The position numbers and the translations under genes are program-made. Shown here one piece after another: positions 19,077 to 64,000 of a stretch of DNA of 64,000 nucleotides. The number at the start of each line of letters is the position of its first letter. The first letter of the stretch is position 1. The notes under the pieces are model-generated. The model worked only from the letters and a program-made list of their open reading frames with translations, was not told the origin of the DNA and searched no databases. The DNA lies in assembly GCA_034440575.1 (NCBI GenBank), contig JAOTOL010001604.1, forward strand, positions 2,311,001-2,375,000. The letters run 5' to 3'. Origin of the DNA: Imbricaverruca yamaguchii (lineage: Eukaryota > Arthropoda > Thecostraca > Neoverrucidae).

Positions 19077-19148
19077 CGAGATCCCACCTCAAGGAGTCGT
19101 TGGCTGCGACTGCAATTATTCTCGTGTTCTCGTACATGGGGCTCGTTG
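19077..19148 (+). CDS. Star: Star-like exon: transmembrane helix
   Basis: Acceptor TGCTTTGCAG, donor TTG|GTGAGT. It starts with 2 nt of a split codon and ends with 1 nt. It encodes SHLKESLAATAIILVFSYMG, a single hydrophobic helix flanked by charged residues, as expected for the signal anchor of a Star-type protein. The phase fits the next exon, making a Val codon across the junction. Confidence 0.7.
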
Positions 19149-22058
19149 GTGAGTACCAAACAGGAACGCCAACAGCACAAAGCTGACAGGAGGGGAGTTG
19201 TCTCTCCAGTCTGTAGGCCGACTCCAGTAGAACAACTCACGTTGGTAAAGGTGGCTGCGCTAGTCAGCGCTTGTGACACGCTTCCCGTGTGTAGGTCAGC
19301 ATCAACTCAGTGCTTTCAGCAGTTATATTGCTTGAAGATGAATGTTTGATGTCATCATTGAACCCTGCACGCGTCAATCTGGCTGTAGCTCCTCGAAATC
19401 AGTTTGCCATGTCTCGCACGCACGGACTAGTGTTGTACCACACTGCATGCTGAGAGGACGGCCAACTGCTGTCCTCTGGGGACGGGTCGTCTGTCTTCTG
19501 GGGACGGGTCGTCTGTCTTCTGGGGACGGGTCGTCTGTCCTCTGGGGACGGGTCGTCTGTCCTCTGGGGACGGGTCGTCTGTCCTCTGGGGACGGGTCGT
19601 CTGTCCTCTGGGGACGGGTCGTCTGTCTTCTGGGGACGGGTCGTCTGTCCTCTGGGGACGGGTCCTCTGTCCTCTGGGGACGGGTCCTCCAGCCTGGGCC
19701 AGGTTGCCCTTGTCCACACCATGTCTAGATGACGGCCGACTGCCTGCCTGCGTGTTGACTTGCGGCAGGCTGGCTGTATCGGCCGGCGCTGTGCCTTGAC
19801 CAGTGGTGGCCGTAGACAGATTGGTGCAGCTGACGCCGGAGCAGGACGACCCGGCGCTGGTGGCCGAGATCAGCGGCCGGTTGCTACCGCCCTCCTCCGC
19901 CCCGTACAACCTCAGCAACCCGGAACGTTACGAGTGGGGCCAGGCGGGACAAGTGCGCGTGGTGCAGGCGCTCACCAGGAATAAGGTTGGCGCATGCCGC
20001 GGCACCACCGACTTTCACTGACCATTCTTCGAAGGAGACATGGTGCTCTCATTTGAAATACATCCATCTATACTTCGGATAACATAGTTTCTTTGCATTA
20101 TGTGGCTCGTTGCCATACCATGAAGGTTGACGCTGCTTGATTGATTGTTGATGACGCTGCTTGATGAAGATTGACGCTGCTTGATGAAAATGGCACCATC
20201 GTGCCATTTTCTCTGATCGAGCCTAGTTGCAACGTGAAATATGGAAATGTCTACTCGTGTAGCCCGTACAAAAGTGCCCAGCCAACCCGACGATATAGCC
20301 GCGAGTGTGCGTGGCGCCGCAACTCTGTCGTCTGGCGCAGACTGGTGGCTTCTTCGTGGAGACGGGCGCACACGACGGCGAGGCGATGAGCAACTCGCTG
20401 CTTCTGGAGCGTGTGTTCGGGTGGCGCGGCCTGCTCATCGAGCCGTCTCCCAAGCTGTTCTCCGGCATTCGCAGCCGGAACCGACGCGCCTGGGCTCTGG
20501 AGGCGTGCGTCAGTAATACGGGAGCGCCATTTCAGGTCAGGCTTGCCCCGTTCTGCCACGTGGGGTCTTTGCTGTTTCAACTGAGTCTTTCTAATAGTTA
20601 ACAGAAATGTCGCTTCCAGAAGAGCGCACCCAGTTGGCACTGGTGCTTAATATGCTTTATGCTCGACTTTCTGAGTTGCTGGACTTTTTGCTATTAAAAA
20701 ACTGCGTCGTACGCTCGCGTTGGTGACCGCATTTGTCGTGAAGTTAAAGTCCATTGACCATTAGTTGTGAACGGCAAGGAGCATGGTGGTCTCGATGTCT
20801 GTGCCGCCCTTGTTCTGCCTTTCTCATGGTGCAGCATCACTGCGTGTGCGGCAAACACTGGTCTTGCCGCCCATCTGGTGGCCGTTGGTTTGATCTGGTT
20901 GTCCGCCCTTGCAACAGGCCATGTTACGCGACCAAACCGGCCTAGGACTGAGCGCTGTGGAGGACGGATTTGTGTCGCAAAAGCTGTCCGACATGTTGCA
21001 AAACGCCAGACCCATGAAAAATATTGAGAAGTATCGAGTGAGCTGCTACCCGCTGTACTCAATCCTGCTGGCATGCAACTGTGCTTCCATCGACTTCTTC
21101 AGTCTGGACATTGAGGGCATGGAGATGGGAGTGCTGGCCCATATTCCGTGGGACCGCGTGGATATCAAGGTGTGTATATAGCGTTTGCACTTGCTGCACT
21201 CATCAGGTGTGTGTCACAGTTTGAAGTGCATGAGACTTATGTTCACAAGAATATTCTATTGGGATTCATGGCACGATGAACCATTGGGCATCGAACACTT
21301 CGTGAGTCGAGCTGTCCCTCATCTGCTACCAAGCTGACCTATTTTAAGTAGGATCATTCGCGAGATAGCACAGCATCGGGCTGCCACCAGCCATGCACAG
21401 TGCAGGGTGTGCCAGTAGGAACCGAAGGGCGTTTTTCGGTGAGTGGGTGTGACATTTTCTAACACTGTTGGGGGAGGATTTTGATCGCTGTAGAGCAAAG
21501 CTACTGACTTGGACTAATTGCCCTCTCGAATCACATGCTAACATAGACCCTCATAATGGTCGTCATAGCATAGCCCCTCATTATATCTAATGATCGTCAT
21601 ACTGTATTGTATCTAAGAATGGTCTTTTGTATTTATGTTATGTTCCGAAGTCTTCCTGTGGTGGCTCGTTTTGACTTCTGAAACCGTACGAATGCTTTGA
21701 TCATAAGATTTTATATTAATGGCGGCCTAGCTTCAGTGGGTGTTTGTTCAATAGTTTCTGGTATGGCGTTAATGGGTGTCGTTCACCTCGTTCCGCCACG
21801 CGGCTGAATCACGGCCAACGTCCGTTCCAGATGGTGCTGGTGGAGACACACATGACCTTCATGTGGAATGTGCAGACTGACCAGATGCGCTGGCTCCTGG
21901 AGTCCCACGGCTACCTGGCGATGCGACTGCGGAACGACTGGCTGTTCGTGCGGCGCGACTCGGAGTACGCCCGCGACGCCGAGGCCATCGTGCGCCGGAT
22001 GCGGCACGAGATCGGCGAGTTGTCACAGAAGGCGCTGAGCGACCCGTACAACGACTGA
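19077..22058 (+). CDS. Star: Star-like FkbM-domain type II membrane protein (5' incomplete)
   Basis: Five exons join in phase: 19077-19148, 19804-19985, 20341-20535, 20918-21169, 21831-22058 (TGA). Exon 1 here encodes a membrane-spanning segment (ESLAATAIILVFSYMGLV). The lumenal part has the FkbM-type SAM-binding block GGFFVETGAHDGE, then GWRGLLIEPSPKLF, IDFFSLDIEGMEMGVL and MVLVETHMTF, ending RNDWLFVRRDSEYA...DPYND. This order matches Drosophila Star and its arthropod relatives. Star helps move the EGF-receptor ligand Spitz from ER to Golgi; methyltransferase activity is not established for it. The exon carrying the start codon (which must end in phase 1) was not found, so the N-terminal cytoplasmic part is missing from this model. 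A 22-bp minisatellite sits in the first intron. Confidence 0.85.
19474..19690. repeat. 22-bp minisatellite in Star-like intron
   Basis: About ten copies of GGGGACGGGTCGTCTGTCYTCT, nearly identical. Long open frames across it on both strands are an artefact of stop-free repetition. Confidence 0.9.
19804..19985 (+). CDS. Star: Star-like exon: lumenal stem
   Basis: Acceptor CTTGACCAG, donor AAG|GTTGGC. It encodes VAVDRLVQLTPEQDDPALVA, then LSNPERYEWGQAGQ, the stem before the FkbM domain, and ends in phase 0. Confidence 0.8.
20118..20190. repeat. Short tandem repeat in Star-like intron
   Basis: Three imperfect copies of a TTGACGCTGCTTGATGAAGA-like unit within the intron between 19985 and 20341. 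Confidence 0.7.
20341..20535 (+). CDS. Star: Star-like exon: SAM-binding half of FkbM domain
   Basis: Acceptor TCTGGCGCAG, donor CAG|GTCAGG, 65 codons, phase 0 both ends. GGFFVETGAHDGE is the glycine-rich cofactor motif, followed by GWRGLLIEPSP and a second Asn/Arg-rich segment ending GAPFQ. Confidence 0.9.
20918..21169 (+). CDS. Star: Star-like exon: central FkbM domain
   Basis: Acceptor CTTGCAACAG, donor AAG|GTGTGT, 84 codons, phase 0. It contains KYRVSCYPLYSILLACNCAS, then IDFFSLDIEGMEMGVL, the conserved D-x-E region of FkbM proteins. Confidence 0.9.
21831..22058 (+). CDS. Star: Star-like last exon
   Basis: Acceptor GTCCGTTCCAG. It encodes MVLVETHMTFMWNVQTDQMR, later RNDWLFVRRDSEYA, and ends DPYND-stop. 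The ~70 bp around the stop are partly repeated just downstream. Confidence 0.9.
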   Translation: MVLVETHMTFMWNVQTDQMRWLLESHGYLAMRLRNDWLFVRRDSEYARDAEAIVRRMRHEIGELSQKALSDPYND

Positions 22059-22136
22059 CGTCAGGTTGCAGCGCGAGGTCAGGGAGCTGTCACAGTCGAT
22101 GGTGATGACCGGCTCTTTTGACGACCGACGTCAGTA
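22010..22136 (+). repeat. ~69-bp duplication across the Star-like stop codon
   Basis: GAGTTGTCACAG (from 22016) recurs as GAGCTGTCACAG (22084), and ACGACTGACGTCAG (end 22065) recurs as ACGACCGACGTCAG (end 22135). The end of the last exon, with the stop codon, has therefore been partly copied once downstream, with divergence between. Confidence 0.6.
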
Positions 22137-22225
22137 CGGTAGTGCTACGAGTAGTGGTATTAGGTTTCCTTTTGGGATCCAAGGTTTACCTGTTGTTACT
22201 AACACGTTGTCTATGACAGTATTAT

Positions 22226-22303
22226 TTTGCCCGACAGGTGATTGATGGGCGTTGTACGACCAACGCAGTCGATGCGCTCGTAAGCCCAAATAACCAGCCA
22301 GCA
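22226..22303 (+). repeat. SINE 3'-tail fragment with flanking direct repeats
   Basis: It contains GCAGTCGATGCGCTCGTAAGC and ends AATAACCAGCCAG, matching the tails near 29,965, 51,190 and 52,508. CAGGTGATTGATG before and CAGGTGATCGATG after look like a target duplication. Confidence 0.6.
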
Positions 22304-23977: not shown

Positions 23978-23987
23978 CTGCAGGAGA

Positions 23988-26164: not shown

Positions 26165-26337
26165 TGGTTGGTTGGTTGGTTGGTTATTGGTTTTACGACA
26201 CATCGACCGTTGAATCATGTAGCGTTGCCAATCTTTCACGCCGATTGGCCGCGGACGAAGAGTAGCAACAGGTGAGACTTCAACCCACAAACTTTCGATT
26301 GTGAGACGAGAAACTTACCCCTAGACTACTCGTCCCC
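26165..26337 (-). repeat. SINE family S2 (GACGAGTAG type)
   Basis: The minus-strand copy starts GGGGACGAGTAGTCTAGGGG, with CTCGTCTCACAATCGAAAG and a B-box-like GTGGGTTGAAGTCTC. It continues GGCCAATCGGCGTGA...CGGTCGATGTGTCG and ends AAAACCAATAACCAACCAACC. The tail is a CCAA microsatellite. Confidence 0.85.
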
Positions 26338-26847
26338 TAGTTAAAATGACTGAAAACTTAACCGAGACAACGAGCTAATAATAACATCTGTGTATTTCAT
26401 AAGTTTACATCTGCGGACAAATTATTCTGAACAGTGTACCTATTGAAACGGAGCAAATAGGGCGACATGCTTATTTCTCTAAATAAAGGGACAGGTCAAC
26501 AAGATAATGATTACGTTTGAAGTGATTTGACCATTTCGAGCACAACCAACGAGATGGTCACGCGGCCTAGCGCACGTGGATAATAACCCACACAGCCAAC
26601 TGTGTGGGTGAGTCCTTTTGCGCACTAAGACAATGCGAAGGAGACTTAATATCAGCGAAGCAAGCCCTCAAACGCCACTAAGGAGTTACACATTACGCTG
26701 AAGGGGTGCCAGGAATGAGGCCATATTCCACGTGAAAAAGTACATGACACGCGACAGACACGACCACAGACACACGATCTACGCCTCATCTGCGGCTGCA
26801 CTAATAAATAAGCGCCGGAGTTCGGCCGACGCCGGCAGACCAGCACT

Positions 26848-27689: not shown

Positions 27690-27932
27690 CAACCACTGGG
27701 TCCATTCCGCCAGCCATGTCCGTCAGTTTCCCTCGTCAGCTGATCCGTCAGCTCAGCTCCCAGGTCAGCTCAGCTCTGACCGTCAGCTCTGACCGTCAGC
27801 TCAGCCCCCAGCTCAGCTCCGACAGTCAACTCAGCTCAGCTCCGACAGTCAGCTCAGCTCAGCTCAGTTCCGACCGTTAGCTCAGTCACCAGCTCAGCTC
27901 AGCCACCAGCTCAACTCAGCTCCCAGCTCAGC
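27690..27932. repeat. CAGCTCAGCTC low-complexity tract abutting TMEM50 stop
   Basis: Read on the minus strand, GAGCTGAGCTG repeats begin directly at the TMEM50 stop codon (GGC TGA GCTGAGCTG) and run for about 240 bp with interspersed GACTGTCGGA. It would form the start of the TMEM50 3' UTR. Confidence 0.8.
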
Positions 27933-38279
<10,347 letters not shown>

Positions 38280-39060: not shown

Positions 39061-39089
39061 ATGTATAGAAGGGCATCCCTCTAGAAGGC

Positions 39090-44750: not shown

Positions 44751-44859
44751 TGCAGCACTTTACTTCTATTATTTCTCCAATCTTTAACAAAATGAGATAT
44801 TAACAGAATAAGATATCCAACCCATCAATCGCCTTCTTGATGGTACAATGTCTGTGTCA

Positions 44860-48055: not shown

Positions 48056-51000
48056 GTGAGTCCCGTTTGTTCTCTATCTCGATTGTGCGTCTGTGCGTGA
48101 TTATTATCCTGGGTGGAAGTTCGTATGCTTTTTTAGGAAGGTGGCACTTGTCTAGGTCTGAGATGTCCTTGCTGAAAACAAACTTAAAATGAATGAGCCT
48201 CATCTCGTTCAATGGTATTCTTGCTCACCGAGTATCAGGTGTGGGGAGGTCGCCCTGTGTCGTCTGCACATGGGGCACTACCACGTCATTCAAAGCTACT
48301 TGGTGTGGGGTCTAAGTATACCAGATGCTACACCTCTCTGATGGTACATCATGTTATGTTCTGTCTGAATTGTGTTGCCAATTTCAACGCCATTTTGGGT
48401 GAACGCAGTTGGTGTCTTGTGGCTGGCAGTGACCGCTACACGAGGGTATATCACGAGGATATGCGCTGCTCCGTTACACCGATAGTATATCACGCCCTGT
48501 TGGGTGTCCCCTGGTGCAAGCCAGGGGCCGAGCAGTAGAGAAGAGTAGGGTGCCATCGCCCAACCGATAGAGTGTGGGTTCGAGTCCCACCTGTCTCTGG
48601 TTTTTCGCCACCGATCGATCGGCGTGAGACCGGCGACGCTTTGTGGCCAAACATTCGACGCGTCGTATAGCCAATAATCGCCACTTGATGAAAGTCTTTC
48701 GTGGACGATGCGTTAGCTTTCGTAGCACCGACATATCCACGCGACCGCTATGTTGTTTGCAGATGACACCAGTTGTAGCTTCGGGCGAAGGTTTGAACAG
48801 TTCGATGCCACATATCGTCCCTCGTAGGCATCAGCTGAGCTTGGAAGAGAAAGAAGTATGCTATGGACGCATAATGACATCGGCAGTGAAGCGTCGTAAG
48901 GCCACAAACCACCACCTGCACCGGCGGTCGGAGACCTGACCCAGACTGCACCAGCAGCACGTATCCGTGATGAGAGGCGAGTCGGTGACACGTCACCTGC
49001 CTGCTGCTGCTCCTGACCACCTGACCCGATCTGATCTGACCTGACCTGCCCCCAGCACGTGAGTGAGCGGGCGGCGGCCGTCGGCTCGGACGTGGACCAG
49101 CTGGTGCAGGATGTGGCCGTGGCCCGCTCCCGGCTGCAGACCACCGGCACCCAGCTGATGCTCATCTCCAACACCCGGTTCGTCGAGTCGCGCGTCTACG
49201 ACGAGGACGTCACCGTCGGCGCCGCCGCCACGAGCTCCGAGGAGGCGGCTCAGGTAGCGGCCCGTACAGGCAATGCCGCACACAGACTCTGTCTCTCTTT
49301 GAGTCACCTTAAAGGAAGTTGTTTAGTAAGACTGCCAGCCAATGAATATGCAACCCTTGCAACTGTTTACTTGGAGCGTCATGATTTAGCGGGCCGTATT
49401 CGCTTATTAGCCAGATTGATGCATTGTAATAATTTTTGTGTGTGTATATTTTCATCATTTTCTTCCCTTGCTATGACCACAAATGTACGTTCCATCCCCA
49501 GATTTCGAAGTAAAAAAAATGTGCCAACGTCTGGTCCCGGGGCAGTAGGAAGGGGAAGCTGACAATTATTCATGTTATTCCACAATTTAATGAGCTAGCC
49601 GAGAAGTCATGCATAGCATCCATGTGGAGCATGAGTCGCTTGAAGTTAATCCAGGTCGTTTATTTATAGTCATTTCGGCTTACTGCACAGTAAGCCCAAA
49701 TGACTGTATGTTGCAGTAAGCTGGCATTTTGAGTCCCTTCGGTCTAATTTACATAGGGTCCTTGGATTATCTTGACCGTAAACTACGTGTTGTATTTCGA
49801 GTCGCTGGAATTTAGTTTATGTTGTATATCTGCATATTGTGTCGGCTGTAACTTGTGGCCCAATACCATTGACCGTCGCGAGTCTAACAAATCCTGGGGG
49901 ATTCTGTTGGGACTGCTGCTGCTGTGGGTACTATTCCCGCTGGGGGGACTCAGCTGCTGCCGTGAGAGCTGCTGCTGTTGTGGAGCTGTGCTGTGTGCAG
50001 CTGCCGCTGCTATGGAGCTGTGCTGTGTGCAGCTGCCGCTGCTGTGGAGCTGTGCTGTGCGCAGCTGCGCTGCCGATAACTCGACAATCCCCACAATACG
50101 TATCTGGTACATGTCACCTGTGATATCCGTGCCGCTGAGTACCAGACTCGACACGACTACGTGTCGGCAGGTGCTCTCCAAAGAGGAGAGCCAGCGGTCG
50201 GCGCACGCGCGGATGGTCGAGGCGCTGGCGGTCGGCTGCCAGCTGCTGGACGACACCTACGACAGACTGGAGGTGTCAGACTCGGACAGTGACGACGACG
50301 CCGACGACAGGTCGGTCGGTCTAGCACGACAGGTCGACACGACAGGACGACAGGTCAAATGGTGCTTAACACGCGCACCGGAGGCGGCCGGGCGAGGAGC
50401 TCCGTCCACTCGGATATGTCGTAGATATGCCGTATCTACGACATGTCCGAGTCGTAGATATTGTCTATCCGAGTCTCTATTGTCTACCCGAGTATATTTC
50501 CTTGCGAAGATATGTCGTAAACGGAGAGGGTCGTTGTGCTGCGATATTGGGACTGTGTTGCAAATCGATAAGCAATTATTTTGCAAGATATCACAGCCGT
50601 TGTAATGTTTGTTTATTTGGTGGTTCACGACACACTTTATGCACATTCACGTCTAATGGCGCCGCCCACTTTTCGGGGGGGTTGTAAATGTCCTGAGCGG
50701 CGCTAGTGTCGAACCGTGGACCTTTGGCCATAGCCGACACCTTAACCACTCGGCCATCCCGCCCCCATCCGTCTGTAAATGTAAGTACCATGGAGGATGG
50801 GGTAAGGTCCGGTTGGTCGGGTAAGGTCGACCAACCGGCCGCCGGTTTGCCGCCTGCCGATCACCTGGCCACCTGGCCGCCTACCGTTCAAGGCCACAAA
50901 GGCTTGGTCGGCCCGGCGGCGTCGTGTGTCGGCCGATCTCGACCTCAGTTCACCAAGAAGGCCTAGGTTGGCCTTGGTTGAATGAGTTGTTTAGATGAAA

Positions 51001-54000
51001 TGAGATAACTTGGAGAAATGAATTGAGTAGTTTAGTATTGGCCTAGAGTCATCAACTGTATACTGTATGGAGTTCACAGGACATAGGCGTCCTCGCAGGG
51101 GGCCCCTATGTGGTGGAGTGTCACGAACAGTTGAACACAAGCACAACTGTTCGTGACACTCCATCACATAGGCGGGCATCCGGCTCTACACGACTGACGC
51201 AGTCGATGCGCCCCTAAACTGCGCCCCTAAACTGCGCCCCTAAACTGCGCCCCTAAACTCCAATAAAAACCACAGGACGTACACGTGAACGCCACTTCCA
51301 AGAAGGGGCCTTCTTTATGTTGCACTAATCTTTTATGTCTTTATCTTTATGTTTTACGTACCAGCAGATGATTCGGTAACATTCATTTTGGAAGCATATT
51401 TCGATAACTGGGTGTTCTGATTTCATGCCATATACTCACCTCGGTAGCACTTCCACGTACTCTGGCACTCAAATGTGCGTTGCGTGCGCCATATAAAAAA
51501 ATATTTTGGTCGAAACGCCCTTAAACCCGGATAGCAAGCAAATGAAACCAGTTGGTTGCCTACGTGACCCTCCTTGATACGCTGCTCTGTTCGACTGTCA
51601 CTGGACCCCAGCTGACGTGACTGACACCCTCCTCCGTCTTACCTCACGGCCACATTCCCCCAGCTGACGTCACTGACACACTTCCCTAGCTGACATCACT
51701 GATGCTCCCCTCCATCTTACATCACTGACAAACTGCCCCCCCCCCCTGCGCTGCATGCGGGTCTCGTCCCTAGACTGTGACTTGTCTCGGCTACATTTCT
51801 CCATGTGCCTGTGAGCTGGGCTCTCCTGGGGCTGGTACGCGCCACCCGGTGTCACCCATCTTTACCACCCCTGGTCTCACCTGGCTTGTTGTCTCCTTGC
51901 AACCCAAGCTGCTGGCAACCATTTTGGCCATGCTGTTGGTGATTTCACATGAGATTATCTAAACACGTGTTTGCAGGATCATGCATTTTATAATGTGTCT
52001 GAAGTTTTTGTCGGCGATGCAGTGATTTTGCAAATCAGTGATTTTGCAAATCTTATCACGAAGTTTGCGATTCGACGGGCGCCGTTTACTGCTTTCCTGT
52101 TGATGGTGGCAATTCATCTTTGAAATTGGTAGCAGCTTTCTGCTCGGAGGCGGCGGAGGAGTCTTCGTTGCGTTTGTGTGACAAAACGTAAGTCCCAGCA
52201 CAGGGTCACGTTTAATTCAGAATGTGCGTCGACGGCGGCGACGATTCTGCTGACGACGTGATCAGGATGTCGCTGACGTGCTGACGACAGTTTTACTGTT
52301 TCGCCGGTGATGTAGCAGCATGCCGCTGGTGGTCGAGCAGCGGGACCCGTACCTGGACCGCCTGCTGCCCTGCATCATCAGCAGCAGACAGTTCGAGGAC
52401 GACGATGCCGTCGGCCTTCAGTTGGGCCCGAACGCCGAGATGCCGCCGCCCGCCACCGACGATGATATCACCGACGAGGTGAGAGGCTGACGATCTCGCT
52501 AACGAGCTTTGGGCGCTAAATGACCTCGCAATCGGCGCGCCCAAATAATCAATCGATTGCTGACGAGCTTAGGAATCGCTGATGATGGAGAAACCATCGC
52601 GTGAGCGTAGTTATGCTGCAGGGGCTGGAGGTAGGGTGGGGCTGCTGCTAAATATTATAGTCTCGTCATGATCTGTACGTCTCCGTTACTGGAGCGTGAG
52701 GTAGGGTGGGGCTGCTGCTAAGTATTATAGTCTCGTCATGATCTGTACGTCTCCGTCACTGGAGCTAGAGGTAGGGTGGGGGTGCTGTTATAGTCTCATA
52801 CGACCTGTATGCTTCCGTCGTACTGGAGCTAGAGGTAGGGTGGGGGTGCTGTTATAGTCTCATCACGACCTGTACCTCTCCGTTACTGGAGCTAGAGGTA
52901 GGGTAGGGGTGCTGTTATAGTCTCATCATGATCTGTACGTCTCCGTCACTGGAGCCACAGGTAGGATGGATGTGCTGAGATAGTTTCTTTACCAGTTCAT
53001 CAAAATTCGGAAATTTTGGTGGGTAGCAATGCACAATAGGACAATTATATAAACGTGAAGTCAGATATTTAGTTTTGCTGACATCTTCCATAGGCCTATA
53101 TCAATGCACCCAATACATTTTAGTAATTAGGAAATGTTAACTTGCATCTGACGCTCCAATGAAGATGAATTCGGACACACCGGTCTACAGTCTGTGCGTC
53201 TGTGCCACAGGAGCTGGAGGAGGACGCCAGCTGCCTCACGGTGCCTCCAGTGGCCGGTGTGCCGGCGGTGGCCCGGGTCGACCCGACCGGCTCAGTGGAC
53301 GGCTCGCCTGACCTTCACGCCGTGGCCAACGGTCAGGTGAGTGGCTGTCGTCTGCTGCCATCTCCGTCCCGCCCGCCATGACGCGGACGAGCCGTGCCGA
53401 GGCCGGGGACATGCTCTGGCTCCTAGCGCGCTGTTTGACGGTCCAGGTCTGAGTTTGTCACCCGTCAGTGGTAAAGACGGTTATAGATATGCACCCTGGG
53501 CGCCAGGTCACTTCGTGCCCTGCACAGGCGCTTTCCGCGGCCATTGTTCTCCCGCGCTGTGGCGTAAAACTGGCGACGCGTTTTGTATCGTGTCTCGCTC
53601 GAGACTCGAGACTGCGCATAGTGGGATAGGAGATATCCGGGTGTGCTCCTCCCTCTCTGGCCGTCGTATGTGTTGTCGCGTTCCCAGAACACTGGTGCCC
53701 GGATCTTGATGCTCGGCAACTCTTGGACCTCGCCATCCGTACTGAGTGTCTGTTCATAGGCCCGCGGAATTGCTAAGGCAATTTATATCTTGTCAAGCGC
53801 CTTCCAGCGACATGCAGTGATTGGTGGTGGTAGGAGGCCTTTCGCCCTCCGTTTGGTATGACGAGCGTGCCGGCGTTCAGGCGCGTTGCTGCTGTAGCCA
53901 GACGGGCGTGTCTCTGCTTGGCAGGGCGAGCCATTGCGCTCCGAAGTCGGAACTCCAAACGCCACCGGCAGGCAGCACGAAAAGCCTCCGCTTCCAGCCT

Positions 54001-57000
54001 CAGGTACTCATCTCGCCGACTGCGTTCTCCTTGGTTGGAGGTGCACCAGCTATGTTACGCCATGCTACCAATCTGAGGGGGTGTTGGGGGTTGTGTACTA
54101 GAAGCACTCCAGCGATTATGCGTCAACGCCCAAAGCAGGTGCTCTCGCACCGAGCAGCTTTCCCCACGACTGTTACCCGTGGGAAGCTCTTCACCGGAAG
54201 CGTACCGGAAACCGAAACATCGCTACCACTTGCACACATGCAACCATGCATCAGAAGCGCATCAACAGCCATGCTAGCAGTACGGAGCGCGCCGATTCTA
54301 GTGCCCCGCTTTCACTAGTAGCAAGCGGTGAATGCGTGCATGAAGCAGCAAATCAGAGATCCTCTGGCACGGCATTGTGTAGCCGCCAGTGTGTGACTGG
54401 GAGAGTACAAGGCTCATCATCCTGTGTGTGCGTTGTCACGGTAAAGCCTGCTGTTCACAAACATTTCTTATCTAGAGTGGATTAATCTAAGCTTGAGCTT
54501 CGCCGGTCCCAGGCAACATCTTCGGTGGTGCGTTTGACCTGGGGTCAGACGACGACGTGGGCGACGGTGACCTGTTCGGCGGCGGAGCCGGGGCGGCTGC
54601 TGACCTGTGGGGTAGCAGCGCCGGTGGAAGAAGGGACAGATCGGCTGCATGGAACGGCCCACCGGACGACCGGTCAGATTCTGGTAAGGTGGTGTACTGG
54701 CTGGACAGAGTACGATGGTGTGTCGGTCGCACACCTACAAGTGTGTCCCTTCCGCTCTTGTCACGTTTCAAGATGGTGTGCAATATTTGGTGTGGTGGAC
54801 AGCGTCCGTGCTCAGTTAGTTAGGATTGGGTAGCAGTCGTCCAGCTCTGGGTCGTCCGAAACTGACCAGTCCAATAGAGAGCTTAGTCGCTGGGAGCAGC
54901 ACGTTAACTCTATGCAAGCGTCTGGCCGTCCTACGACTCTAAGGTCTGGACATTCCATTTTTATTGGATTTTTTTGTTGGTGTGCATGAAAAAAAATCAC
55001 TGAGCCGATCCGAAACGTTTAATCTTAACATGAAAAAGAAGAGCATTGAGTCTCTATGATGCATTGGATTGCTGGATCACATGGCGTCGCCAAACTCTCG
55101 TGCCGATTGGTCGCGGGTGGACTTGGTAATCACACCGGTTGTATTATATGTGGCTATGGTGGCTTCCAATGGGGAAAGTTTGCCTAAACTTGTAAATTTC
55201 GCCGTTTTCAGTTCACCAGAGCTACCAGTCTTAAATAAAAAGTGGGGTATTGTAAAATACACAACTGGGGGACGAGTAGCCTAGGGGTAAGTTTCTCGTC
55301 TCACAATGGAAAGGTTGTGGGTTCGAGTCTCACCTGTCGCTACTCTTTGCCCGCGACCAATCGGCGTGAGAGTTTGGCGACGCTGCATGACTCAACGGTC
55401 GGTGTGTCGTAAAACCAATAACCAACCAAAATACACAACTGAGCGCCGATAAAATAGGACTGCATGGATCAGTAATGTATATACTATATCGGCGGTAGGT
55501 TGTGTCTGGGTGCACCGTCGCTATGAGCAACGGTGCACACAAATTCACAAAATATTCGGCACTTTAATGTCGCATCCACCACGTAAGTCGCACAAATCCA
55601 ATCAGGTGGTGGTTGTCTTGCTCTCGTAAACGAGCCGGCTGTTCGGAACTTATGCAAGTCGATCGGAACGGAAGTGTCTGTTTACGACTGGCCGGGTCAT
55701 ATACTGGCGAGCTGACGCTGGCCAACCGAGAGTCAGAGCGTGGCCTATAGACCTTCCGTGCTGCAGGTATAGACCGGGCACCATACCGTTGTGTGGTGGT
55801 CTACAGACCTTCCGTGCTGCAGGTATAGACCGGGCACCATACCGTTGTGGTGGTCTACAGGCCTTCCGTGCTGCAGGTATAGACCGGGCACCATACCGTT
55901 GTGGTGGTCTACAGGCCTTCCGTGCTGCAGATGTAGACCGGGCGGCACCATATCGTTGTGGTGGTCTACAGACCTTCTGTACTGCAGGTATAGACCAGGC
56001 ACCATGCCGTTGTGTGGTGGCCCACAGACCGTCCGTTCTGCAGGTATAGACCGGGCACCGTACCGTTGTGGTGGTCTACAGACCGTCCGTGCTGCAGGTA
56101 TAGACCGGGCACCATACCGTTGTGGTGGTCTACAGACCTTCCGTGCTGCAGGTATAGACCAGGCACCATACCGTTGTGTGGTGGTCTACAGACCGTCCGT
56201 GCTGCAGGTATAGACCGGGCACCATACCGTTGTGTGGTGGTCTACAGACCGTCCGTGCTGCAGGTATAGACCGGGCACCATACCGTTGTGGTGGTCTACA
56301 GGCCTTCCGTGCTGCAGATATAGACCAGGCACCATACCGTTGTGTGGTGGTCTACAGACCGTCCGTGCTGCAGGTATAGACCAGGCACTATGCCGTTGAA
56401 GAAGAAACTTTGAAGAAGTTCTCCACCGTTGGAGAAGAGTTCTTCGACCGCGACTGGTCTATTTTGGTGCGGAGACAATGGAGGCGGACCGTGACTGTTC
56501 CGTCTTGGTGCGGAGACAGTGGAGGCGGACCGCGACCGTCCCGTCTTGGTGCGGAGACAATGGAGCCGGACCCCGTCTTGGTGCGGAGACAGTGGAGGCG
56601 GACCCCGTCTTGGTGCGGAGACAATGGAGGCGGACCCCGTCTTGGTGCGGAGGCAATGGAGGCGGACCCCGTCTTGGTGCGGAGGCAATGGAGGCGGACC
56701 CCGTCTTGGTGCGGAGGCAATGGAGGCGGACCCCGTCTTGGTGCGGAGACAATGGAGGCGGACCCCGTCTTGGTGCGGAGACAATGGAGGCGACCCCGTC
56801 TTGGTGCGGAGACAATGGAGGCGGACCCCGTCTTGGTGCGGAGACAATGGAGGCGGACCCCGTCTTGGTGCGGAGACAATGGAGGCGGACCCCGTCTTGG
56901 TGCGGAGACAATGGAGGCGGACCCCGTCTTGGTGCGGAGACAATGGAGGCGGACCCCGTCTTGGTGCGGAGACAATGGAGGCGGACCCCGTCTTGGTGCG

Positions 57001-60000
57001 GGACAATGGAGGCGGACCGCGTCTTGGTGCGGAGACAATGGAGGCGGACGCCCGTCTTGGTGCGGAGACAATGGAGGCGGACCCCGTCTTGGTGCGGAGA
57101 CAATGGAGGCGGACCGCGACTGTCCCGTCTTGGTGCGGAGACAATGGAGGCGGACCCCGTCTTGGTGCGGAGACAATGGAGGCGGACCCCGTCTTGGTGC
57201 GGAGACAGTGGAGGCGGACCCCGTCTTGGTGCGGAGACAATGGAGGCGGACCCCGTTTTGGTGCGGAGACAATGGAGGCGGACCCCGTCTTGGTGCGGAG
57301 ACAATGGAGGCGGACCCCGTCTTGGTGCGGAGACAATGGAGGCGGACCGCGTCTTGGTGCGGAGACAATGGAGGCGGACCTTCCCGTCTTGGTGCGGAGA
57401 CAATGGAGGCGGACCCCGTCTTGGTGCGGAGACAATGGAGGCGGACCCCGTCTTGGTGCGGAGACAGTGGAGGCGGACCCCGTCTTGGTGCGGAGACAAT
57501 GGAGGCGGACCGCGACTGTCCCGTCTTGGTGCGGAGACAGTGGAGGCGGACCCCGTCTTGGTGCGGAGACAGTGGAGCCGGACCGCGACTGTCACGTCTT
57601 GGTGCGGAGACAATGGAGGCGGACCGCGACTGTCCCGTCTTGGTGCGGAGACAATGGAGGCGGACCCGCGTCTTGGTGCGGAGACAATGGAGGCGGACCC
57701 CGTCTTGGTGCGGAGACAATGGAGGCGGACCCCGTCTTGGTGCGGAGACAGTGGAGGCGGACCCCGTCTTGGTGCGGAGACAATGGAGGCGCGACTGTCC
57801 CGTCTTGGTGCGGAGACAATGGAGGCGGACCCCGTCTTGGTGCGGAGACAATGGAGGCGGACCCCGTCTTGGTGCGGAGACAATGGAGGCGGACCCCGTC
57901 TTGGTGCGGAGACAATGGAGGCGGACCACAACTGTCCCGTCTTGGTGCGGAGACAATGGAGGGACGGACGTCCCGTCTTGGTGCGGAGACAATGGAGGCG
58001 GACCCCGTCTTGGTGCGGAGACAATGGAGGCGGACCCCGTCTTGGTGCGGAGACAGTGGAGGCGGACCGCGACTGTCCCGTCTTGGTGCGGAGACAATGG
58101 AGGCGGACCCCGTCTTGGTGCGGAGACAATGGAGGCGGACCCCGTCTTGGTGCGGAGACAGTGGAGGCGGACCCCGTCTTGGTGCGGAGACAATGGAGGC
58201 GGACCCCGTCTTGGTGCGGAGACAATGGAGGCGGACCCCCGTCTTGGTGCGGAGACAATGGAGGCGGACCCCGTCTTGGTGCGGAGACAATGGAGGCGGA
58301 CCCCGTCTTGGTGCGGAGACAATGGAGGCGGACCCCGTCTTGGTGCGGAGACAATGGAGGCGGACCCCGTCTTGGTGCGGAGACAATGGAGGCGGACCCC
58401 GTCTTGGTGCGGAGACAATGGAGGCGGACCCCGTCTTGGTGCGGAGACAATGGAGGCGGACCCCGTCTTGGTGCGGAGACAATGGAGGCGGACCCCGTCT
58501 TGGTGCGGAGACAATGGAGGCGGACCCCGTCTTGGTGCGGAGACAATGGAGGCGGACCCCGTCTTGGTGCGGAGACAATGGAGGCGGACCCCGTCTTGGT
58601 GCGGAGACAATGGAGGCGGACCCCGTCTTGGTGCGGAGACAATGGAGGCGGACCCCGTCTTGGTGCGGAGACAATGGAGGCGGACCCCGTCTTGGTGCGG
58701 AGACAATGGAGGCGGACCCCGTCTTGGTGCGGAGACAATGGAGGCGGACCCCGTCTTGGTGCGGAGACAATGGAGGCGCCTTTGAGACAATGGAGGCGGA
58801 CCCCGTCTTGGGTGGGGACAATGGAGGCGGACCCCGTCTTGGTGCGGAGACAATGGAGGCGGACCCCGTCTTGGTGCGGAGACAATGGAGGCGGACCCCG
58901 TCTTGGTGCGGAGACAATGGAGGCGGACCCCGTCTTGGTGCGGAGACAATGGGAGGCGGACCCCGTCTTGGTGCGGAGACAATGGAGGCGGACCCCGTCT
59001 TGGTGCGGAGACAATGGAGGCGGACCCCGTCTTGGTGCGGAGACAGTGGAGGCGGACCACAACTGTCCCGTCTTGGTGCGGAGACAATGGAGGCGGACCA
59101 CAACTGTCCCGTCTTGGTGCGGAGACAGTGGAGGCGGACCACAACTGTCCCGTCTTGGTCCGGAGACAATGGAGGCGGACCGCGGCTCTCTCGTCTTAGT
59201 GCGGAGACAATGGAAACATGTTGTCCCCTCAGATGCCCGTAGATGCCACAGCGGGTGCTGAAGTATCGTTAATAAACCTTGTCTTTGAAATATGATAGTG
59301 AATACTTCATGAAACGAGGGAGAACGATAAGAAATGACATGAAGGCTGGCAATAAAGTGTGAATAGTTGAGTTAAGTATACATAGAAAACGCAAGGTGTA
59401 AGAATATTTTCGGGAAAGAAGTTACGGATGTTTCGAAAGGTTGGCAATTGGACGGGTTCGGGCCGGTTCACTTTTGATCGCTAATGTTGGCTTAGTCGGA
59501 AAACGCAGTGTGTCCCATTCTACTCAAGTACCACGTGAATCACGTCACTCCCGCTGCGTCTTGATTTATCGGACCATGTTAATCTGTGCAAAGCTCATCT
59601 ATCATAACAGCTGAACGAGTTGGTTCCACGCTTGAATGTCAGCGCGTCATACCCCAGCCAGACTGGCAATGTTTATGTAGGGACGTGTTTGTGACGTCCA
59701 TGCTGGCTCAGTGATGCCTGGCTGACTTGTGCCGGCCGGCAGTGGCCTCGACGGTGGGAGTGTCGGAGACCGGCGCCCAGGGCGAGAGTGCCCCGCCTCC
59801 TGAGCAACCGCGGCCTCCGGAGAGAAAGGTCAGCATCGCAGCGCCGGTGAAATAGCCAAGCTCGCTGCCAACACGGCGAAGCTCCGCCACAAATCGCCAA
59901 GATACTGCCACTAATCGGCACCGTTATGGTGACTTATTGCCGTACCGACTGATGCCGTGATGTTGGCTCATGCCTCGCCACGTGTGTTGTGGTGTTGGCT

Positions 60001-63000
60001 GATGGCCCTCCACGTGTGTTGTGGTGTTGGCTGATGCCTCGCCACGTGTGTTGTGGTGTTGACTGATGCCTCGCCACGTGTGTTGTGGTGTTGACTGATG
60101 ACCTGCCACGTGTGTTGTGGTGTTGACTGATTCCTTGTCGCTTGTGTTGTGATGGTGACTGATGCTGCACCACGTTTGTTGTGATACTGACTGATTCCTG
60201 GCCACGCTGCTGTGATGCGCGCTTCAAAATATTAAAATGATTCCAAAGATTGCAAAGTGAGTCCCTGTCGTAGTAGTTGTATGAACAGTCAGACGTTCCG
60301 ATGTCGTGTTGATCCGGTGCACTCTAGGCCGACGGTATGTGCCCAGTATGCTGATGGTGCCATACGTTGCGACGGTCCACAGTCCCGCTTTGTCGGTGTC
60401 TGGCGATCGGTGCTGTGTGCTGAGTGACGTGCTAATCAGCTGATCTTGGCTAGTGCTGACCCGCGTCTTCCTGTGCTGGTCGGACATTCGTGAGGCGCTT
60501 ACGTCCGTGCTCTGTCATACTAGCCGGACCGTTGTATTGAACTATGACGACTTCCGCTACTGTGCTGTTGGGCTGGCTGACGTGATATTGCTGTATGTGC
60601 TGTGCTCACCGGACATCTATTCTGCACCACCATAGTCTGATCTCTGCACTGCGCCACTCCATCCTGGTCTACCATATCACTCCGACGTGACTTCTTTGCC
60701 ACTCTGACCTGCCGTCTGTATCGCCCTGACCTGACATGGTCGCCCCTCTGGACCTTCCTTACCTGGCCTGCGGGCTGTATCGCCTTGACCTGACTTGGTC
60801 ATCCCTCTGGACCTTACCCTGACCTAACACATATGCCTCTCTGTGACACCAGCTGCCTGCCGGAGCCGTCTCCATGTTCTGTATTGTACCGTGCTGACCT
60901 GACCTGACCTGACCTCTGTACCTCTGCGACACCAGCTGCCATCCGGAGCCGTCTCCGTGTTCTGTATTGTACGGTCCTGACCTGACCTGACTTGACCTGA
61001 CCTCTGTACCTCTATGACACCAGCTGCCGGCCGGAGCCGTCTCCATGTTCTGTATTGTACCGTCCTGACCTGACCTGACCTCTGTACCTCTCTGCGACAC
61101 CAGCTGCCGGCCGGAGCCGTCTCCATGTTCTGTATTGTGCCGTCCTGACCTGACCTGACCTCTGTACCTCTGTGACACCAGCTGCCGGCCGGAGCCGTCT
61201 CCATGTTCGGCGGAGTTGACCCGTTTCCGGCTCGACTTCTCGGCCCGGCGCGCTCCTCAGCCGAGCTCGACTCGTCCTCTTCCGACGACGAGCAGCCCGC
61301 CTCGACCCGACGACCGCCCAGGTAGTGTTACCACCGGCCGGTGGTGGTAACATAATGTTACCCGTGGTAATGCTACCGCGGGTCTGCTGGTCCGCCCGGC
61401 CGCCGTTGAATCATGTCTATGCCTGGTTACATCGGTGTGTAGTGTATTATGATATATGCATTTATTCGCCTTTGGTGACCAAACGTTTATGCATCGACGA
61501 ACTTAATCTCATTTGCATTGGGCGGGATTGCCGAGTGGTTAAGTTGTTGAGCTCCGAGTGCGAAGGTTCTGGATTCAACATTCGCACATATCGGGACATT
61601 TCACAGTCCCGTGGTCCACCGGTGGAACAGTGTGGACGGCAGCATTACCCGTGATCGTGCATAAAGTGCAGCATGAACTACCCAATAAACAATCGACCTA
61701 GCCAATGGTAGTTCAGGGTTAATTGTCATTATTCTCTTTTTGCCAAGCGTAAAGATGACTACCCCATAACAACAGCAAACGTCCGTGGGCCCTCACTTCG
61801 ACATATCGCCATGAGCCCTGATACTACGTCATTTTTACTTAGTTTAGCCGACTGAATAAATCCGAATCACCGTAAGTCTAGCGACAATTATATCACAGTG
61901 ACGTCACCTCGTGGTTTTTAGCCTAACTTGAGAATAATCTTACATCCTGTGAAAAGTGCACCACATCATACAAATATATTTTATGCAAAATTAAATATAG
62001 GATAACCTTCGACGTGTTGGGGAGGGGAGGTGAAGCTCTCGGGAGCCTCCCTCAGCGCTTCCCCGTTGGCAGTGGAATGAGTAGACACAGAGACGTCACG
62101 TTTTCAGTGGTTTGTTGTCTTAAGTTCTGGTACCATAGCCGTCATCGCTGAAAAAGTGTAGGAGAGAAGGGGTGATATTGGCATGATTGCCAATGGGGCA
62201 TACTTATGATTCGCACGAATACTTTTTGAAAATGGAGTAGAGACTACGCTGTCCCCTATGACATCGCTGTAGCCTTGACAGTTCGACACACATTGTTTTC
62301 TTCGAATCGTTCTAGTGGTTCTAGAGATATTCATGGAAATTTACAAGGCCTTCCTCCCCCCCCCCCCCCCAGCAGGGTCCGGGTTCAAGCGTCAGCGGTG
62401 TGGCCGTCCTCGTTGCCGTACTGCGTGACCTCGCTCAGTCAAATGCAACTGCGGCGTACAATGAGTTGCACCAGTTGTGTTCCTGGACTCTGATTGTCCG
62501 ATGTGCCGTGCGCATGCGCAGAGTGGCGTCCGCCGTCCAGCCGTGTTGTGCGGCGAGTGTGATTGGCTGACGTCGAACGCCGGCGCTGCTGCAGGTTGGC
62601 CAGTCGTCCGATCAATTCCCGGCAATTGCTGCTGCCGCCGTCCGACGACGACGAGGATCTGTTCCATCCGCGACCGCAGCGCCGCGCTGCGGACGCCGTG
62701 CGAACTTCTGGAGCCGAGCCGACGGCGGCGACGAGGCCCGCCGCGGCCGAGAGCGTCCGCAGCGCCGGCCCGGCCCCGGCCAAAGCCAGCACGACGGCGG
62801 CCTCAAGACCCGCCGCGGCCGGGAGCGGCCGCAGTGGCGGCCCTGCCCCGACTGAAGCCGGCACGCGGCGGCCCACCGCGGCGGCTCTGTTCTCCAGCAG
62901 CGATGACGAAGACCTGTTCCAGCCGTCGCCGGCCCGCCCGCCGCCAGGGGCTCGGGCGTCCACCGGCGGGCGGCAATCGGAGGCGGGCGCGAGTAGGACC

Positions 63001-64000
63001 GCGCCTGCACCGAGCGCACCGGCTCCCGAGCCCCGTCGGCTCGCCGCCGCCGCCGCCGCCGCCAGACCGTCCAAGGGTTTGTTCGACAGCGACTCAGACG
63101 AAGACATATTCGCGGTGGTGTCGCCCTTGCGTCCGGCAGCAAAGCCAGTGGGAAGCGGAGCAGCGGGTGCTGGGGGACACGAGCGAGATGTGTTGACAGG
63201 TGGACAGGAGAGGACAGTGCAGGGTGATGTGGTGGCTGGAAGGTCGGATCGGCAGCCCGCTGATTTAACCCGTAGCGCGTCCTCCGGTGTTGGCGACACA
63301 GTCGCACGTCAGACACTCGCCGCAAATATCCCGGCCAAGGCGTCTGGCGCCTCCCGGGATAGCCAAGAGGCTGGCGCATTCGCCGCCGTCGGCAGGCCAG
63401 CCGGCGAAGGTCCAGTCCAGAAGTCCAGCTCCGCACGCTCTGCGCTGGAAACGCCGGCGGTGGCGCAGAAGAGTGATCGCCTGTTCTCCTCCAGTTCTGA
63501 CGAGGACCTATTCGCGGTGCTGGCCGTCGAGGCGCCGGCGGCGGCAAGCCAAACTGTCCGAGACTCGGCGCCTGCCGAGAGTACCACTCCGTCAACACCG
63601 CCAGACCGGCCCTCGTCCACAGCGAAGGCCGCTCCCGCACCCAAGTCCACCCACTCGCCCGCATCCACTCGCACGCCAGATCCCGCTCCCGTGCCAGAGT
63701 CGGCTCCCGCTCCCGAGTCGCCTCTGGTCTCGAAGTCAGCGCCGGCTCCCGCGGCCCGGTCGTCCGTCGCCTCGAAGTCAGCGCCTGCTGCAGAGCCGGC
63801 CCGGGCGGCCCCGAGCCTCCTCGACTCCGACAGTGACGAGGACGACCTGTTCCACCCGGTAGCTGTGGTCGGCCGGCGGCGCGCCGCCCCCGCTGTCTCT
63901 GCCGGTCGGCAGGCAGCCCGTCGCCGGAGCGGACGACGGCCGGCGCCGGCGTGGGATCGACCGCCGCGTGTCCGGCTGCGCAGCACACTGCTGACGTGGC
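47933..64000 (+). CDS. WASHC2: WASHC2 (FAM21), WASH complex subunit 2, 3' incomplete
   Basis: Nine exons found: 47933-48055, 49056-49253, 50171-50310, 52319-52478, 53211-53331 (or -53336), 54513-54683, 59743-59828, 61182-61321 and 62595 to the window edge. Phases agree at every junction. FAM21 hallmarks in order: DEIRQRSTSWNLAADSRLLA, TQLMLISNTRFVESRVYDED, ALAVGCQLLDDTYDRLEVSD, VEQRDPYLDRLLPCIISSRQ, FGGAFDLGSDDDVGDGDLFG, KLPAGAVSMFGG, then five acidic LF motifs. WASHC2 tethers the Arp2/3-activating WASH complex to endosomes: the N-terminus binds the complex and the LFa repeats bind VPS35 of retromer. The protein continues past the edge. Introns hold very large minisatellites; the longest is 5 kb. 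Confidence 0.95.
48541..48682 (+). repeat. Diverged SINE related to family S2
   Basis: A GTGTGGGTTCGAGTCCCACC B box is followed by GATCGGCGTGAGACCGGCGA, CATTCGACGCGTCGTATAGC and CCAATAATCG, a diverged version of the S2 body, in WASHC2 intron 1. Confidence 0.7.
49056..49253 (+). CDS. WASHC2: WASHC2 exon 2
   Basis: Acceptor CTGCCCCCAG preceded by CTGAC-rich sequence, donor CAG|GTAGCG, 66 codons. SDVDQLVQDVAVARSRLQTT, then LMLISNTRFVESRVYDEDV, match the helical WASH-binding head. Confidence 0.93.
49982..50077. repeat. 32-bp tandem repeat, three copies
   Basis: GGAGCTGTGCTGTGTGCAGC plus TGCCGCTGCTRT, starting at 49982, 50014 and 50046, about 100 bp before WASHC2 exon 3. Confidence 0.85.
50171..50310 (+). 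CDS. WASHC2: WASHC2 exon 3
   Basis: Acceptor TGTCGGCAG, donor ACAG|GTCGGT, phase 2 end. Encodes VLSKEESQRSAHARMVEALA, then QLLDDTYDRLEVSDSDSDDD. Confidence 0.93.
50409..50451. repeat. Hairpin: 19-bp stem, 5-nt loop
   Basis: CTCGGATATGTCGTAGATA and its complement with one mismatch, loop TGCCG. Similar GTCGTAGATA / CCGAGT words repeat to 50,500. In WASHC2 intron 3, 98 bp after the exon. Confidence 0.85.
50607..50766 (-). repeat. SINE family S1, reverse copy
   Basis: The minus strand reads GGGCGGGATGGCCGAGTGGT, TAAGGTGTCGGCTATGGCCA, CGCTCAGGACATTTACAACC, AATGTGCATAAAGTGTGTCG, TGAACCACCAAATAAACAAAC. Inserted in WASHC2 intron 3. Confidence 0.88.
51105..51172. repeat. Strong hairpin: 29-bp stem, 10-nt loop
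   Basis: Arms 51105-51133 and 51144-51172 (CCTATGTGGTGGAGTGTCAC... against ...GTGACACTCCATCACATAGG) differ at one position. Inside WASHC2 intron 3, so the pre-mRNA could fold it. Confidence 0.92.
51188..51357 (+). repeat. SINE tail with 13-bp amplification, then LINE-A tail fragment
   Basis: ACGCAGTCGATGCGCCCCTAAAC is followed by extra copies of TGCGCCCCTAAAC (three to four), then CTCCAATAAAAACC. From about 51,291, CCAAGAAGGGGCCTTCTTTATGTTGCACTAATC and TTTATGTCTTTATC match the 3' end of LINE family A, severely truncated and internally deleted. Confidence 0.75.
52319..52478 (+). CDS. WASHC2: WASHC2 exon 4
   Basis: Acceptor GATGTAGCAG; the first C completes a Ser codon. Encodes MPLVVEQRDPYLDRLLPCII and a Glu/Asp-rich end, donor GAG|GTGAGA. 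Confidence 0.93.
52508..52560 (+). repeat. SINE 3'-tail fragment
   Basis: TTTGGGCGCTAAATGACCTC, GCAATCGGCGCGCCCAAATAAT; same tail family as near 29,968. Confidence 0.5.
52620..52975. repeat. ~63-72-bp tandem repeat, five to six copies, in WASHC2 intron
   Basis: GAGGTAGGGTGGGGnTGCTG, TTATAGTCTCATCATGATC and TGTACGTCTCCGTCACTGG recur at ~72, 69, 64, 64 and 63 bp spacing. Confidence 0.85.
53211..53336 (+). CDS. WASHC2: WASHC2 exon 5, two possible donors
   Basis: Acceptor CTGTGCCACAG. Encodes ELEEDASCLTVPPVAGVPAV and so on to VANG. The stronger donor CAG|GTGAGT after 53336 leaves phase 0, which does not fit the next exon. The weaker AAC G|GTCAGG after 53331 gives phase 1, which does. Either an unseen exon lies between or the weaker donor is used. 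Confidence 0.8.
53337..54512. other. WASHC2 intron, GC-rich, no feature recognised
   Basis: Has several medium-length open frames on both strands, none with recognisable motifs. It may be an old mobile element. A missed WASHC2 exon could be here. Confidence 0.4.
54513..54683 (+). CDS. WASHC2: WASHC2 exon 6
   Basis: Acceptor GGTCCCAG, donor TCTG|GTAAGG. Encodes NIFGGAFDLGSDDDVGDGDL, then FGGGAGAAADLWGSS, an acidic FG/LF-type segment. Ends phase 1. Confidence 0.9.
55063..55143 (-). repeat. Partial SINE (S3-like 3' half), reverse
   Basis: ACATGGCGTCGCCAAACTCTCGTGCCGATTGGTCGCGGGTGGACTTGGTAAT resembles 3,141-3,195; the tRNA-like head is missing. Confidence 0.6.
55268..55430 (+). repeat. SINE family S2, forward copy
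   Basis: GGGACGAGTAGCCTAGGGGT, CTCACAATGGAAAGGTTGTG, GGGTTCGAGTCTCACC, GACCAATCGGCGTGAGAG, CCAATAACCAACCAA. AAAATACACAACTG on both sides (about 55,254 and 55,429) is a clear target duplication. Confidence 0.92.
55745..56395. repeat. 53-56-bp minisatellite, 12 copies, in WASHC2 intron 6
   Basis: Unit GACCTTCCGTGCTGCAGGTA, TAGACCGGGCACCATACCGT, TGTG(TG)GTGGTCTACA. The length varies by a GT-GTG insertion. CTGCAG|GTATAG in each unit mimics both acceptor and donor. Confidence 0.92.
56455..59215. repeat. 32-bp minisatellite megablock, ~80 copies, in WASHC2 intron 6
   Basis: Core unit GGAGACAATGGAGGCGGACC plus CCGTCTTGGTGC (32 bp). A longer 41-bp form carries GGACCGCGACTGTCCCGTC or GGACCACAACTGTCCCGTC. 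The 41-bp form dominates at both edges (56,478-56,540 and 59,050-59,180), while the 32-bp form is highly homogeneous inside, especially 58,200-58,770. The unit lacks stops in nearly every frame, so 800-900-codon frames appear on both strands; these are not genes. Confidence 0.95.
59216..59742. other. End of WASHC2 intron 6, nothing recognised
   Basis: Unique-looking intron sequence between the megablock and exon 7. Confidence 0.45.
59743..59828 (+). CDS. WASHC2: WASHC2 exon 7
   Basis: Acceptor GCCGGCAG, donor AAAG|GTCAGC. Encodes VASTVGVSETGAQGESAPPP, then EQPRPPERK. Phase fits both neighbours, and the final Lys leads into LPAGAVSMF as in other FAM21 proteins. Confidence 0.8.
59950..60195. 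repeat. 32-bp minisatellite, ~7 copies, in WASHC2 intron 7
   Basis: Unit TGATGCCTCGCCACGTGTGT, TGTGGTGTTGGC, increasingly diverged towards the right. Confidence 0.88.
60196..60839. other. WASHC2 intron 7 interior, nothing recognised
   Basis: Unique-looking sequence between the 32-bp array and the CTGACCT-rich acceptor array. CTGACCTG words begin near 60,705. Confidence 0.45.
60840..61181 (+). repeat. 78-88-bp repeat of the WASHC2 exon 8 acceptor
   Basis: GACACCAGCTGCCGGCCGGA, GCCGTCTCCATGTTC begins at 60845, 60928, 61016 and 61096, and the real exon copy at 61174. Each copy contains the AG acceptor and the first 27 nt of exon 8, then TGTATTGTACCG and a variable run of (T)GACC pentamers (CTGAC, branch-point-like), which explains the length differences. 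Confidence 0.92.
61182..61321 (+). CDS. WASHC2: WASHC2 exon 8
   Basis: Acceptor GACACCAG, donor CCCAG|GTAGTG. Starts LPAGAVSMFGGVDPFPARLL, a conserved FAM21 motif, and ends SSSSDDEQPASTRRPPR, phase 2. The acceptor and first 27 nt are repeated four times upstream. Confidence 0.92.
61519..61690 (+). repeat. SINE family S1, forward copy
   Basis: GGGCGGGATTGCCGAGTGGT head, GGACATTTCACAGTCCCGTG, GTGGAACAGTGTGGACGGCA, GTGCATAAAGTGCAGCATGA, CCCAATAAACAATCG tail. In WASHC2 intron 8. Confidence 0.85.
61691..62594. other. WASHC2 intron 8, nothing else recognised
   Basis: Intron sequence with a C15 homopolymer at 62,355-62,370; short open frames only. Confidence 0.45.
62595..64000 (+). CDS. WASHC2: WASHC2 exon 9, LFa-motif tail (runs off the window)
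   Basis: Acceptor GCTGCTGCAG; the first G completes an Arg codon. The frame stays open to 64,000 (over 460 codons). Five acidic LF motifs: DDDEDLF (62644-62664), LFSSSDDEDLF (62887-62919), LFDSDSDEDIF (63079-63111), LFSSSSDEDLF (63481-63513) and LLDSDSDEDDLF (63817-63852), separated by Ala/Pro/Ser-rich linkers. Such motifs bind VPS35 of retromer. An internal duplication is seen at RPAAAESVRSAGPAP / RPAAAGSGRSGGPAP. Very GC-rich. Because it has no internal Met start, the frame is easy to miss among overlapping shadow frames. Confidence 0.9.

Follow-up and report, generated by a model that had tools for sequence, protein, structure and literature searches.

Tandem arrays across three exon-intron borders in a barnacle resemble the mirages of amphioxus genes

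Minisatellite-like tandem duplications that lie over 5' or 3' intron-exon borders, many of them carrying splice signals, have been described in amphioxus under the name of 'mirages', with examples in Adh3, the globin genes BflGb6 and BflGb9, PGBD5, and troponin C (PMC3087553, PMC3902484). In these reports, RT-PCR indicated regular splicing, copy number varied between haplotypes, and a link to new introns was proposed (PMC3087553, PMC3902484). The first-pass annotation of the barnacle DNA studied here had presented exon-border repeats as a feature not described in an animal lineage, a claim that does not hold in general because the same structure was already on record for amphioxus. A search of the literature at the level of main articles found no report of border minisatellites for barnacles or other crustaceans, and the main texts of barnacle genome papers, as covered by term searches, refer neither to minisatellites nor to repeated splice sites. 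What we describe is an amphioxus-type structure in a crustacean, i.e., a known structure in a lineage for which no report was found.

The window analyzed is a stretch of 64,000 nucleotides from Imbricaverruca yamaguchii, and three animal genes were modelled within positions 19077-64000, namely a Star-like gene (+ strand), TMEM50 (- strand), and the 5' part of WASHC2 (+ strand). The Star-like protein is an FkbM-type methyltransferase (Pfam Methyltransf_21, E 8.3e-15) whose best named relatives belong to the barnacles Pollicipes (61%) and Amphibalanus (53-57%). What we take to be TMEM50 matches Pfam UPF0220 (E 5.9e-47) and is 87% identical to Amphibalanus TMEM50 and 88% to the protein P0031, followed by a match group at 60-68%, and the name of what is presumably WASHC2 depends on two fish FAM21/CAPZIP proteins (35-36% identity), which are its relatives among the best 7988 candidates scored. 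The protein similarities thus point, most likely, to a barnacle different from Pollicipes and Amphibalanus. TMEM50 begins with exon 1 (38184..38279, - strand; ATG at 38279; donor CTG/GTAAGC, the slash marking the splice junction). The exons of chief concern, i.e., TMEM50 exons 2 and 3 and WASHC2 exon 9, are 113, 161, and 140 nt long, with introns of 1285-4718 nt; a mean intron of 2,077 bp is given for the Pollicipes genome (PMC8917513).

Three arrays in this region are tandem duplications of exon-intron junctions, and the unit at each of the three repeated borders joins the end of the exon to the splice signal and part of the intron. Border array A (32935..33384, - strand) overlaps the end of TMEM50 exon 2 (33353..33465, - strand, 113 nt; real donor CAT/GTGAGT at 33352) and extends into intron 2 as eight units at 58-bp steps, each composed of exon 2 end, donor, and intron, so that the real donor is accompanied by seven decoys. 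Over their 32 exonic nt, the decoys are identical to the real exon 2 end at 25-31 of 32 positions, GT is present in all seven, the units encode the end of the exon 2 peptide (15 residues), and six intronic copies of the exon 2 end were also retrieved by blastn. Decoys 1-4 carry the real 9-mer CAT/GTGAGT and the last three are weaker; donor score, computed with a weight matrix, drops with depth from the exon (rho -0.90, p 0.008). Use of any of the seven decoys is predicted to introduce a stop directly after codon 70.

Border array B (30503..30971, - strand) is likewise anchored in the end of an exon, in this case TMEM50 exon 3 (30957..31117, - strand, 161 nt; real donor CCG/GTGAGG at 30956), and runs into intron 3. 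Its 15 units of 31 bp, each formed from the last ~15 nt of exon 3, the donor, and 16 nt of intron, correspond to the real donor and 14 decoys, GT being present in 13 of these; by the same matrix, seven of the 14 score at least as high as the real donor, and the score again falls with depth (rho -0.82, p 0.001). No copies of the exon 3 end were reported by blastn at E 0.01, the exonic part of the unit being only ~15 nt. The first decoy, if used, would be expected to give a frameshifted product of 171 residues, and the others a product of 134 residues.

The acceptor counterpart, border array C (60839..61208, + strand), lies downstream of WASHC2 exon 8 (59743..59828, + strand), reaches into exon 9 (61182..61321, + strand, 140 nt; real acceptor CCAG/CTG), and supplies four extra copies of the acceptor together with the first 27 nt of exon 9. 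These decoy acceptors, which precede positions 60853, 60936, 61024, and 61104, are spaced 78-88 bp apart upstream of the real acceptor; the copies match the first exon 9 nucleotides at 24-27 of 27 positions, keep CAG in four of four decoys, and encode an LPAGAVSMF-like peptide, the corresponding end of the exon 9 product. All four decoys, if used, are predicted to yield 375 residues instead of at least 872, and the acceptor units contain no good donor (best score 2.34). Repeats at two TMEM50 donors and one WASHC2 acceptor had been proposed in the first-pass annotation, and these are borne out as the exon 2 and exon 3 donors and the exon 9 acceptor.

Farther upstream in WASHC2, a 63-bp array in intron 4 (52655..52984, + strand) stands 226 nt from the acceptor of exon 5 (53211..53336, + strand) and resembles it, although the AG is changed in the aligned unit. 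The alignment has 27 of 34 columns identical and a score of 31 (p 0.0002; 5000 shuffles, best 29), and among 38 exon-border segments the exon 5 acceptor ranks first, the next scoring 20. The array is probably a decayed relic of that acceptor, a match graded as probable rather than certain because a single segment among 1480 controls outscored it (32 versus 31).

Beyond these arrays, borders were surveyed with a recurrence test based on ungapped 30-mers, in which a match of at least 24/30 within 2 kb was counted. The 35-bp array near the TMEM50 exon 4 acceptor (28049..29202, - strand) ends 6 nt before exon 4 (27933..28042, - strand, with the stop codon), but no border copy was found in the array, and the best match of the border 30-mer was 16/30. 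This acceptor, which the earlier proposal had included among the repeated borders, was rejected as a duplicated border; its low p value in the unit comparison arose because the test segment took in an edge of the array itself. Two tRNA-derived SINE copies interrupt the array, and since these are 98% identical to each other versus 76-85% identical to three other long copies within the window, the array and its SINE were probably duplicated together. At the other end of the exon, the suspected repetition of the TMEM50 stop reduces to its place on the margin of a low-complexity array of GCTGA type (27736..27940, - strand), which includes the stop codon, covers 8 nt of exon 4, and reaches 23/30 in the 30-mer test. 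The Star-like stop region (22004..22134, + strand, coding end and stop), also named earlier as repetitive, does hold a duplication some 60 bp long (p 0.0005; below threshold in the ungapped 30-mer test, at 16/30), albeit a single, diverged, old one and not an array. Two further candidates were not counted: a weak resemblance between the Star-like intron 2 array and the border of exon 2 (one of 30 comparisons, p 0.027) and a short local repeat at the WASHC2 exon 3 donor (p 0.0025, one among many borders; 18/30 in the 30-mer test).

In sum across the three genes, 3 of 32 splice borders, i.e., two donors and one acceptor, are tandemly repeated into the intron, and the same 3/32 recur in the 30-mer test, compared with 290 of 997 intron positions (29.1%), 3 of 208 exon positions (1.4%), and 1.8% of 720 positions at 1000-19000. 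Border recurrence is thereby above that of exon interiors (Fisher p 0.033) and below that of introns (Fisher p 0.015). Tandem arrays occupy 7520 of 25383 nt of intron (29.6%), 82 of 2620 nt of coding exon before WASHC2 exon 10, and 387 nt (2%) of positions 1-19076. In a placement test of the 18 intronic arrays, three overlap an exon, where 0.9, 1.7, and 2.5 were expected at 30, 60, and 100 nt of allowed overlap (P 0.055, 0.22, and 0.48), and under free placement 4.0 arrays would be expected to contain a border. Fourteen of the 18 lie away from borders, with neither exon overlap nor a relic, one of these being the array that adjoins exon 4 at 6 nt.

Unit content gives a similar picture. Each of 15 array units was set against the two borders that flank it: border arrays A-C and the intron 4 relic matched, the exon 4 array matched its own edge only, and ten consensus units lacked flanking-border similarity below p 0.02; units of the two long arrays in WASHC2 intron 7 (55740..59214, + strand; 54-bp and 32-bp units) were without similarity to flanking borders. 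Exon-derived sequence is thereby present in the units of the three border arrays and, probably, of the relic. The duplications recur as repeats beyond chance, and a preference for borders is not supported, although a mild border preference may exist in this one window, with its three genes and three arrays, given that the placement P is borderline (0.055) at the strictest setting. Read most simply, duplication would be frequent in these introns, purged from exons, and tolerable at borders since one copy stays intact.

The explanation that fits best, and one that we regard as likely, is ordinary intronic minisatellite turnover that happens to run across a border and is tolerated through exon definition. 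The introns here are rich in minisatellites of 20-120 bp, and according to this scheme tandem duplication would run over them without marked regard to position; where a duplicated segment by chance spans a border, copies would accumulate on the intron side and leave one intact exon at the edge, thereby giving rise to a mirage. Splicing would keep the exon-attached site as the nearest partner across the exon, and the arrays would be near-neutral, tolerated passengers that lengthen introns, for which a regulatory role is unnecessary. Exon definition joins a 3' site to whichever 5' site lies closest on the other side of the exon. Where exons are short and introns long, pairing should accordingly involve the attached copy, and since that copy is always the nearest, intron-side decoys would lose even at equal strength; it is this favoring of the exon-attached site that would render border arrays tolerable.

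Judged from the sequence, many decoys match the real site in strength, and the protein would be truncated or frameshifted if they were used. Amphibalanus TMEM50 and P0031 are gap-free across the exon 2 and exon 3 junctions, and more distant relatives are gap-free at the exon 2 junction, as are all five relatives compared there, and one residue shorter near the exon 3 junction; the gap-free proteins fit the use of the exon-attached donor. The drop in donor score with depth likewise agrees with decay of unused sites, but could represent ordinary divergence of array ends.

Other readings account for parts of these data. If borders were duplication hot spots, with arrays extending away from the exon in the manner of a conveyor and lengthening intron ends, one would understand why three arrays reach into an exon at one edge, why the exon-nearest units are the most alike and bear the strongest donors, and why a fourth array resembles a relic shifted 226 nt from its acceptor. 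Such growth seeded at junctions, which the first-pass annotation had advanced as a general rule, is nonetheless unlikely, since borders recur less than intron positions do (3/32 versus 29%), placement P ranges over 0.055-0.48, and 14 of the 18 intronic arrays are away from borders. Array ends elsewhere diverge too: in divergence profiles, which left out the arrays at 30503, 55740, 56540, and 52655 on account of indels and a poor gapless consensus, the non-border arrays S1S2 and 36658 diverge toward one end and those at 26843 and 59957 at both. The related idea that intron birth is under way by the route of Rogers, wherein an exonic AGGT segment is duplicated and introns are created or in creation, shares with our arrays the tandem duplication of exon sequence together with splice signals. 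It is nevertheless highly improbable, and the annotation's suggestion of AGGT-segment duplication as a source of new introns finds no footing, because none of the three repeated junctions (CAT/GTGAGT, CCG/GTGAGG, and CCAG/CTG) is AG/GT; in addition, AGGT words number only 2, 2, and 0 in the three border arrays, the repeats sit inside existing introns, and the acceptor units of array C are without a good donor.

A function for the decoys would take the form of clusters that recruit spliceosome parts and tune TMEM50 or WASHC2 output, for example via truncated, degraded transcripts. The TMEM50 introns 2 and 3 do contain 12 of the 19 strong donor-like 9-mers found in 25.4 kb of introns, these 12 matching four strong decoys in array A and eight in array B, and the human IFI6 gene provides a precedent for repeat units as alternative donors (PMC4526556). 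We consider such a role improbable even so, given that the predicted products are truncated or frameshifted, unlike the IFI6 isoforms, that decoys decay with depth, and that amphioxus mirage genes showed regular splicing (PMC3087553); the splicing-buffer role formerly suggested is unsupported on the same grounds of truncation and frameshift. Assemblies often misstate how many copies a long tandem array holds, and the present arrays might by extension be artefacts of assembly, yet the units differ mutually and from the exon in ordered ways that a simple duplication error would not generate, which makes this origin very hard to credit. Ordinary minisatellite turnover at a tolerant border is therefore retained as the preferred reading.

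A broader proposition, which we put forward tentatively and regard as possible though rather doubtful, is that mirages are recurrent in barnacle genomes, independent of those in amphioxus, and are a consequence of exon definition: in genes whose exons are short and whose introns are long, duplication would be safe on the intron side of every border, and units would arise at the constrained border, move inward, and decay, resulting in one-way growth of introns at their ends. If this were true, a natural series of equal-strength decoys would make exon definition directly measurable in the living animal. Studies of splice-site choice usually rely on duplicate sites that have been engineered; arrays A and B offer seven and 14 natural donor copies, respectively, of which four and seven equal or exceed the real donor in strength by the weight matrix, and array C is the acceptor equivalent. 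Should the correct site always be used, context rather than strength would be what decides. Crustacean mirages are thus useful material for the question of how cells select the correct splice site, they suggest that the mirage structure may extend beyond one lineage, and they indicate that gene annotation at mirage borders in such genomes can go wrong.

Comparison with known systems places these arrays closest to the amphioxus structure. Intron gain by tandem duplication (Rogers 1989, ATP2A1, potato RdRp) likewise duplicates exon sequence with splice signals (PMC4974935), but the barnacle junctions are without AG/GT and existing introns are extended. The minisatellite of human IFI6 (6-16) also has repeat units at an exon border that supply donors (PMC4526556); its units make isoforms, whereas use of the decoys in arrays A-C is predicted to truncate or frameshift the product. 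Amphioxus, for its part, is a cephalochordate in which splicing and length polymorphism were tested, whereas the barnacle arrays are read from the sequence of one haplotype. As in amphioxus mirages, the barnacle units span the border, both 5' and 3' borders are affected (two donors and one acceptor), and the signals are kept in the decoys (GT in 7/7 and 13/14, CAG in 4/4), with up to 15 units per array in the barnacle versus the 3-6 given for amphioxus BflGb6.

Two copies of a tRNA-derived SINE (28203-28383 and 28820-28999), which are 98% identical to one another, lie within a single minisatellite, the 35-bp array ending 6 nt before the TMEM50 exon 4 acceptor, and were probably co-amplified with this host array. 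A second tRNA-derived repeat family has copies at 34035-34192, 26178-26337, 48561-48677, and 55267-55427 that are 75-92% identical to the reference copy at 34378-34540; Rfam places a tRNA on the minus strand at 34128-34188, inside the copy at 34035-34192.

Tandem arrays account for approximately 30% of the introns within 19077-64000, the part containing the three modelled genes, versus 2% in 1-19076. At 56400-59261, long open frames of 801-970 aa are left on both strands by the 32-bp array of WASHC2 intron 7, probably for the sole reason that the 32-bp unit lacks stops. The 570-aa open frame at 3836-5548, for which no match was found in Pfam, is perhaps of mobile-element origin, and the reverse transcriptase frame at 39085-40938 (Pfam RVT_1, E 9.1e-38) represents a non-LTR-like element sited between TMEM50 and WASHC2.
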